Assembly: GCA_038040445.1 (NCBI GenBank)
Contig: JBBPIG010000003.1
Coordinates: 124,001 to 188,000, forward strand
From: Acidobacteriota bacterium
Lineage (GTDB): Bacteria; Acidobacteriota; Blastocatellia; UBA7656
Length of the DNA stretch: 64,000 nt
Reading direction: 5' to 3'
The translations under genes and the position numbers were made by a program. The notes beneath the pieces were generated by a model. The model was not told the DNA's origin. It ran no database searches and was given only the letters and a program-made list of their open reading frames with translations. Each line of letters starts with the position of its first letter. Positions within the stretch are counted from its first letter, which is position 1. Of the stretch, positions 1,025-3,482 are shown one piece after another.

Positions 1025-1669
1025 TTATTTGGATGTCTTCATCTGGGCAAGCATCGCTTTCAGTTTCGCTGTGAACGTTGCTTCGTCTAACCGCGGTGCT
1101 TTTGTCACGCCGTCGAGTTGATGCATCCAGAATTCGGGCGCCGGCGGCTCCTCCTCCCACGTTGCAGCAGTCCCGTACAAAAGATACACATCCCAAGCGA
1201 TGCTTCTCTCAGTCCTGAGAACCCGCTCCCAGAGTTCGCCGGTTTGAGATTCCGCGTCGAGGAAGTAAGAGACTCGCCTGTCTCGAAAGCTATTCGAGAG
1301 CTTTCGCGCTTCGCCGCGGAAGTCACCACCAAAGATGGGAAGCCAGACGACGTAAGCTCTGACTCGATCCTCGGTCACCTTCTTTAGGGTCTTCACTATG
1401 TTGGAGAACCCCCAACGACACATCGGTCAGGTGGGAGAGACAAGAGCAATCAACCGCACCTTGCCCGCGTCGTTCCGAAAGCGTTCCTTCAATTGGTCAA
1501 GGCTGAGGAGTTCGACGGCTCGCGTCTTGCGGACTGCCGCAGCGGAACTGCCAGCTTTCTGCGCCGCGGCGCATGTAGGCGCACTCAGGCCGGCTAGTAT
1601 TGCTGCTAAGACTATCAGGGCTATGATTGCAGGCCACCGCTTCGAGCTGTCTGCGTGTTGCGTTCTCAT
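1025..1669 (-). CDS. Candidate selenoprotein, exported thioredoxin-like UxxC protein
   Basis: Read conventionally, the minus strand holds two open frames (1750-1427 and 1423-1025), but they are in the same frame and separated by one TGA at 1429-1427 plus one Pro codon. Reading TGA as selenocysteine gives one 214-aa protein: an N-terminal signal anchor (hydrophobic AIIALIVLAAILAGL, residues about 15-30), then a thioredoxin-like core in which strand LIALVSPT runs into Sec81-Pro-Met-Cys84, followed by a helix and the strand VRAYVVWLPIF. UPMC sits exactly where a CxxC redox motif belongs, and sequence on both sides looks like one conserved domain. A SECIS-like hairpin lies just downstream. Start chosen at ATG 1669 (GAAGAA upstream); ATG 1687 is an in-frame alternative. 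A simple nonsense pseudogene is the main rival explanation. Confidence 0.8.
1400..1416 (-). promoter_or_regulatory. Candidate bacterial SECIS hairpin
   Basis: On the minus strand, GTTGG (1416-1412) pairs perfectly with CCAAC (1404-1400). A G-T and a G-C pair can extend the stem to 7 bp, leaving the loop GTT. The stem opens 10 nt after the in-frame TGA and the loop G lies about 16-18 nt after it. Known bacterial SECIS elements sit inside the coding sequence right after UGA, with a small G-containing apical loop about 16-37 nt away. Position and shape therefore fit; this was judged by eye, not folded computationally. Confidence 0.65.
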
Positions 1670-3288: not shown

Positions 3289-3333
3289 GGTTGTCAAGCT
3301 GAGCGCTTTGCATTCATCGCTCGTTGCTCAGGG

Positions 3334-3420
3334 CTCGTGGTCGGGAAGGTGGGCTTGCCCCCGATGAGCCAGTGCTCTGCTTATAGACAGCGGGGGCAAG
3401 CCCACCTTCCCGACCACGAG
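3334..3420. repeat. Perfect 30-bp inverted repeat
   Basis: Arms 3334-3363 and 3391-3420 are perfect reverse complements (30 bp) around a 27-nt spacer; the core reads GTGGGCTTGCCCCC. It starts about 45 nt after the MFS stop and could fold as a hairpin in its mRNA, but no T-run follows, so it looks like a repeat element rather than a standard terminator. Confidence 0.85.
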
Positions 3421-3482
3421 CCTGAGTTATGCGCGGGTTTGGCCGCGAGTAACACTCCGATGAATCAAGTTGGAGTTCTGGT

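Follow-up and report, generated by a model that had tools for sequence, protein, structure and literature searches.

Gene structure and genomic setting

The 64,000-nt stretch of DNA analysed here (the window) very probably encodes, on its minus strand, a functional, exported selenoprotein with a UxxC redox motif. Judged by sequence, the selenoprotein identity itself is close to certain; that the product forms an exported UxxC redox domain is quite probable from the modelled structure, and a role of its family in handling mercury or other metals, argued by analogy from relatives of the gene, stands at about even chances. The window is part of contig 3 of a 6.75-Mb host genome in 72 contigs, whose closest named relatives are Blastocatellia/Chloracidobacterium MAGs within the Acidobacteriota.

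From the ATG at 1669, the frame 1669..1025 (minus strand; stop codon 1027..1025) runs over 214 codons with a single TGA at codon 81 (1429..1427). Translated with TGA as Sec, it reads ...RLIALVSPT-U-PMC-RWGFSN... and gives a complete protein of 214 aa whose residue 81 is Sec, an assignment based on this translation and on homologues covering both sides. This confirmed the first-pass annotation, which had joined two minus-strand frames in register over one TGA into VSPT-U-PMC-RWGF. The in-frame UGA (1427..1429) takes the first position of the UxxC motif; the codon for the presumed resolving cysteine of UPMC, Cys84 (1418..1420), lies in a column that is invariant in a 46-row alignment. The signal anchor proposed earlier corresponds to a hydrophobic segment read from the sequence at residues ~10-36 (KRWPAIIALIVLAAILAGLSAPTCAAA; 1562..1642, minus strand), which precedes the thioredoxin-fold domain and would direct export; a hydrophobic signal or lipoprotein-like start is also found in many relatives. 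Standard ORF calling yields two pieces, 1750/1669..1427 and 1423..1025, the very split that had been predicted for annotation pipelines. Two such fragments are also what a pseudogene would leave, that is, a Cys-type thioredoxin-like gene interrupted by a nonsense mutation.

The gene lies tail-to-tail with a gene for a Nit6803-like nitrilase and is divergent from an MFS transporter gene. A promoter scan returned no promoter for the selenoprotein gene, and no Rfam family was found within the window. Between the selenoprotein and MFS genes we observed an inverted repeat (1800-1891) with 32-nt arms that are 97% complementary; its core, CAGGCTNAAGCCTGAACTCC, is present in 19 genomic copies, frequently arranged as paired arms, vs 0 for the reversed control, and it is probably an intergenic palindromic repeat element. 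Another inverted repeat (3332-3422; 35-nt arms, 97% complementary) is located downstream of the MFS gene.

Conservation across the in-frame TGA

Eight of the first 58 genomes searched with the read-through protein contained a homologue besides the window's own. In seven of these homologues the matched region contained a TGA, accompanied in one case by a TAA close to the 3′ end, whereas the eighth lacked a TGA; the TGA was the same codon in all seven, and the single exception in this 58-genome search carried TGT there. With a profile, the family was then recovered from 47 of 396 Acidobacteriota genomes, 48 family loci came from scanning named GTDB genomes, and 66 non-redundant members were left after removal of near-copies. 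Their common motif is SPT[U/C]xxC, with TGA at the Sec codon in 53 members, TGC/TGT in 12 and TGG in one. Homologues with Cys or TGA at this codon and conserved sequence on either side, which the first-pass annotation had named as a check on its reading, were thus abundant. Its argument that the TGA sits too precisely to be a chance nonsense mutation is borne out as well: wherever a TGA occurs it falls on this same codon, and chance is excluded.

The family spans roughly a dozen phylum-level lineages. TGA members occur in Acidobacteriota, Zixibacteria, KSB1, Chloroflexota, Myxococcota, Gemmatimonadota, Eremiobacterota, Armatimonadota and Neomarinimicrobiota, and further ones in MAGs labelled Actinobacteria and Proteobacteria; as most TGA members are MAGs, single taxon labels are soft. 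The family was absent from the plasmid collection (query L074) and the phage collection (query P0002) searched. On the tree, the residue at the Sec site changes nine times by parsimony, at least seven of them on well-supported branches. The one TGG member, from a Calditrichia MAG (L073:4698-5471), reads SPT-W-LISQ; its second Cys is gone as well, but the remainder of the domain is conserved. Judging from its sequence, this protein is possibly a non-redox derivative.

Downstream of the TGA, dN was well below dS in all 8 pairs compared (0.16 vs 0.98 for the closest relative). Sequence is conserved on both sides of the codon, and the frame decay that would be expected of a decaying gene was not seen. 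The pseudogene reading is therefore opposed both by this persisting selection and by the position of the TGA, shared by 53 of 66 diverged members.

A bacterial SECIS element behind the TGA

The window sequence GUUGGGG-GUU-CUCCAAC (1400..1416, minus strand) folds into a hairpin with a 7-bp stem, predicted with pair probabilities of 0.86-0.92, and a 3-nt loop (GUU, 1409..1407) that begins 18 nt past the UGA. A stem-loop shortly after the UGA with a G early in the apical loop is what characterizes a bSECIS, and by its predicted pairing the hairpin is a textbook bacterial SECIS, though not the same as the fdhF hairpin. At least six of the seven pairs were present in the exact +18 register in 36 of 53 TGA members vs 0 of 12 Cys members. 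TGA members formed 5.85 of 7 pairs on average, vs at most 4.51 in 500 protein-preserving synonymous codon shuffles, and none of the other registers came near this pairing. The pair types are compensatory, with changes on both sides of pairs across members. A single fold of the 60 nt around the UGA was unremarkable (z +0.88); this result was overturned by the exact-register test over homologues, which is the better test.

No hairpin in the +18 register was seen in 17 of the 53 TGA members. Several of them (L069, L083, L091, L094, L095 and similar ones) have a candidate hairpin with its loop near +22, which may be an alternative bSECIS register.

That a covarying hairpin follows the TGA codons and not the Cys codons is further evidence against a nonsense mutation. 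In view of the conserved TGA codon, the downstream selection and this TGA-specific hairpin, we reject the pseudogene reading as extremely improbable. The covarying bSECIS, which had not been mentioned in the first-pass annotation, lends independent support to the reading of the gene as a selenoprotein.

Selenocysteine machinery and a second tRNA

The host genome contains a tRNA-Sec (anticodon UCA) whose CCA end is encoded, together with selA, selB and a Sec-type selD, so that every component proposed earlier for a check was found. The selD gene has an in-frame TGA of its own (CAGUAAK; C21:108415-109344 in G000, the host genome). It is adjoined on the same strand by a gene for a MerA-like FAD disulfide oxidoreductase (G000:C21:106878-108224, L108), which scored 380 bits, below the cut-off of 454. 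Within the Acidobacteriota sample, 33 of 36 genomes with the TGA form have selA, compared with 210 of 349 that lack the family (p about 9e-5). Each of the TGA-form genomes in which selA was not detected is a fragmented or incomplete assembly, and in a near-complete genome of two contigs with the Cys form (G357) there was no selA above the cut-off.

We also identified a second gene of the tRNA-Sec type (L002:1501-1591, minus strand, identical with G000:C5:159193-159283), which scored 65.4 bits (cut-off 47) and has the anticodon GCA instead of UCA. In the window's host, the base after its modelled end is U, and the gene was missed by ARAGORN. Homologues (L110, L111, L112) are kept in three further genomes (G001, G003 and G005) with 82-89% identity. 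Its sequence suggests a tRNA-Cys of the selC* type; such tRNAs are placed in Firmicutes, Thermodesulfobacteria, Nitrospirae and Proteobacteria by a 2020 review that does not list Acidobacteriota (PMC7609411). Among the 7 genomes searched in the window's taxonomic family, the same four carry the GCA tRNA and the selenoprotein; given the few genomes, this co-occurrence may be a coincidence.

The existence of a tRNA-Sec-shaped gene with Cys-type features raises the question of whether UGA is read otherwise here, either as Cys through such a tRNA or through a genome-wide reassignment. However, the GCA anticodon pairs with UGC/UGU and not with UGA, and the canonical UCA tRNA-Sec is present along with selA, selB and selD. 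A recoded genome is rejected because TGA closes many ordinary frames. We consider any such alternative decoding very improbable. The first-pass reading of the gene as a functional selenoprotein is supported computationally by the conserved UGA with Cys alternates, the covarying hairpin, the Sec machinery and the downstream selection.

Predicted structure

Using an alignment of 46 members as input, we modelled 175 residues with AlphaFold, corresponding to the putative redox domain and a short N-terminal linker (1028..1552, minus strand). The model adopts a thioredoxin fold (pLDDT 95.3, pTM 0.90) with beta-alpha-beta topology, and the predicted active-site helix (43-58) begins at the UxxC motif, with Sec81 and Cys84 at its start, as is characteristic of the thioredoxin fold superfamily. 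Foldseek matched it with a probability of 1.00 to ResA/TlpA/DsbE-type thioredoxins and GPX-type peroxidases as the top solved folds, at TM about 0.5-0.67 and 10-17% identity. The thioredoxin-like character noted in the first pass is therefore well founded in the predicted structure, although sequence models barely detect the family. A PDB sequence search gave marginal thioredoxin matches only, the window domain matched 0 named Pfam/NCBIfam families (DsbG-like, SaoT, HUIPC, GOS_C, TlpA, Redoxin and others), and comparison of the 46 members with named families produced only stray sub-threshold matches (best E 0.004).

The closest solved folds include ResA, DsbE, Etrx1, DipZ and GPX types, which is what would be expected of a general envelope redox protein engaged in TlpA/ResA-like thiol-disulfide exchange or peroxide defence. 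For such a protein, proximity to mer genes would be secondary and Sec would merely boost reactivity.

Association of relatives with mercury and metal genes

Several relatives are fused to domains of metal-handling proteins: an N-terminal MerT domain is present in L019 and L021 and a MerP/CopZ-like HMA domain in L018. The MerT-fused Cys form occurs in the culturable Pyrinomonas methylaliphatogenes K22. Moreover, in 22 of 45 non-redundant named loci one or more genes of the classes MerR, MerT(P), MerC, MerA-like, DF, GDCCVxC, ArsR or CopA lie nearby; the class names rest on a single representative of each cluster, and with several representatives below NCBI cut-offs, 'MerR-like' and 'MerA-like' are meant literally. 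All metal-type neighbours (55/55) lie on the gene's own strand, vs 66% of all neighbours. MerT was found in 14 of 47 genomes with the family vs 35 of 349 others (p=5e-4), and the strand-consistent mer neighbourhood recurs in several branches of the tree that are separate from one another. In G005, a genome of the window's taxonomic family (L017/L058/L106), the selenoprotein carries a DF-family (seleno)protein domain fused at its C terminus, with a MerR-type gene located directly upstream. This mercury/metal association of the relatives was missed by the first-pass annotation.

The two kinds of metal-domain fusion, MerT and HMA, and the recurrence of the mer neighbourhood argue against a general envelope redox protein. 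That reading nevertheless gains from the window copy and from many loci without metal genes nearby, and we give it somewhat less than an even chance. Linkage or fusion to mer genes, though seen in many relatives, does not extend to the window gene and its host: the locus has no metal-resistance neighbour, and the genome has no MerT and only sub-cutoff relatives of MerA. For this reason, the proposed metal role is weaker for the window copy than for the family and is least secure for this gene.

Relation to known selenoproteins

As a kind, UxxC selenoproteins with a thioredoxin fold, in which SelB and a bSECIS direct the reading of the UGA, are well known. A 2026 catalogue comprises 119 prokaryotic selenoprotein families, and its Table 1 includes as UxxC thioredoxin-fold selenoproteins Trx (PF00085), DsbG-like (NF041057), SaoT (NF040730), the HUIPC motif (NF047660), GOS_C (NF045500) and thiol:disulfide interchange (PF13098) proteins (PMC13188914). 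The present family shares with them Sec as the first residue of a CxxC-type motif, the thioredoxin fold and a UGA read by the Sec machinery. In contrast, none of its members matches their NCBIfam/Pfam models at E<=0.01, and it has conserved blocks of its own (YVVWxP, AWDVYxLYG and PPxPxxWMHQL). Likewise, the TlpA/ResA/DsbE envelope thioredoxins (1st9, 3gl3, 2l5o) resemble the window protein as exported thioredoxin folds with a CxxC-type site and provide its best Foldseek matches, but they differ in their low identity, the lack of a family-model match and other conserved core motifs.

Sec proteins tied to heavy-metal genes are also known, namely the MerT/CopZ fusion-like (NF045683), UxxU metal-binding (NF041115), Sec-containing MerT (PF02411, ABB16073) and SaoL MerB-like proteins. 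Some relatives in the present family carry N-terminal MerT or HMA domains as these do; however, the known mercury/metal selenoproteins have Sec in a transporter, metal-binding or lyase domain, whereas here it resides in a separate thioredoxin-fold domain. NF045683 did not match the window protein, and in three relatives it matched only the fused MerT/HMA parts, with 31-45 bits against a cut-off of 375 for a full-length match. The DF family (NF049942), a neighbour in 6 loci and the fused C-terminal domain in L017, is redox or metal-linked too, but is a different domain that is absent from the window protein.

As of June 2026, neither Pfam nor NCBIfam has a model that names the present family. 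Compared at the level of its table entries, the catalogue has none that visibly fits it, although an earlier listing under a vague name may exist, for example in the loosely named UxxC lines 'Redoxin family' and 'Thiol-disulfide isomerase-like' (PMC13188914). Papers searched for selenoproteins in connection with MerT, mer operons or Acidobacteria contained no account of it, nor did PMC9312934, PMC12013277, PMC1794560 and PMC5029168. The earlier description as new-looking therefore holds against Pfam, NCBIfam and the literature searched, and against the catalogue at the level of its entries; by sequence comparison, the novelty seems to lie at the level of the family.

Proposed function and implications

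With all parts of the Sec machinery present and a covarying hairpin in place, it is likely that SelB and Sec-tRNA(UCA) recognise this hairpin, 18 nt past the UGA, and insert Sec at position 81. The product would then be exported via its N-terminal signal segment, presumably as a single thioredoxin-fold domain, predicted with high confidence, in which the Sec81-Cys84 pair would act as the active site. From the fusions and neighbours in relatives, its most likely role would be that of a periplasmic or membrane-anchored selenol/thiol oxidoreductase for soft metals, chiefly Hg(II), which would either bind Hg(II) or keep the Cys pairs of MerP/MerT-type carriers reduced. As the window's host has no MerT or bona fide MerA, the protein probably serves there as a stand-alone exported thiol/metal guard. 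More tentatively, the family may have been shaped for mercury/soft-metal detoxification: its exported thioredoxin-fold selenol would capture Hg(II) or re-reduce carrier Cys pairs and pass the metal to MerT/MerA, and Sec would prevail among its members because a selenol binds Hg far more tightly than a thiol.

These results add a putative selenoprotein family in which about 80% of the known members carry Sec and whose genes would be cut at the stop codon by routine annotation without a family model. The interchange of Sec with other residues on the tree, together with an RNA hairpin found in Sec forms only, constitutes a natural experiment, and the link to mercury genes would offer, through Hg-selenolate chemistry, a concrete and testable reason for the use of selenium.
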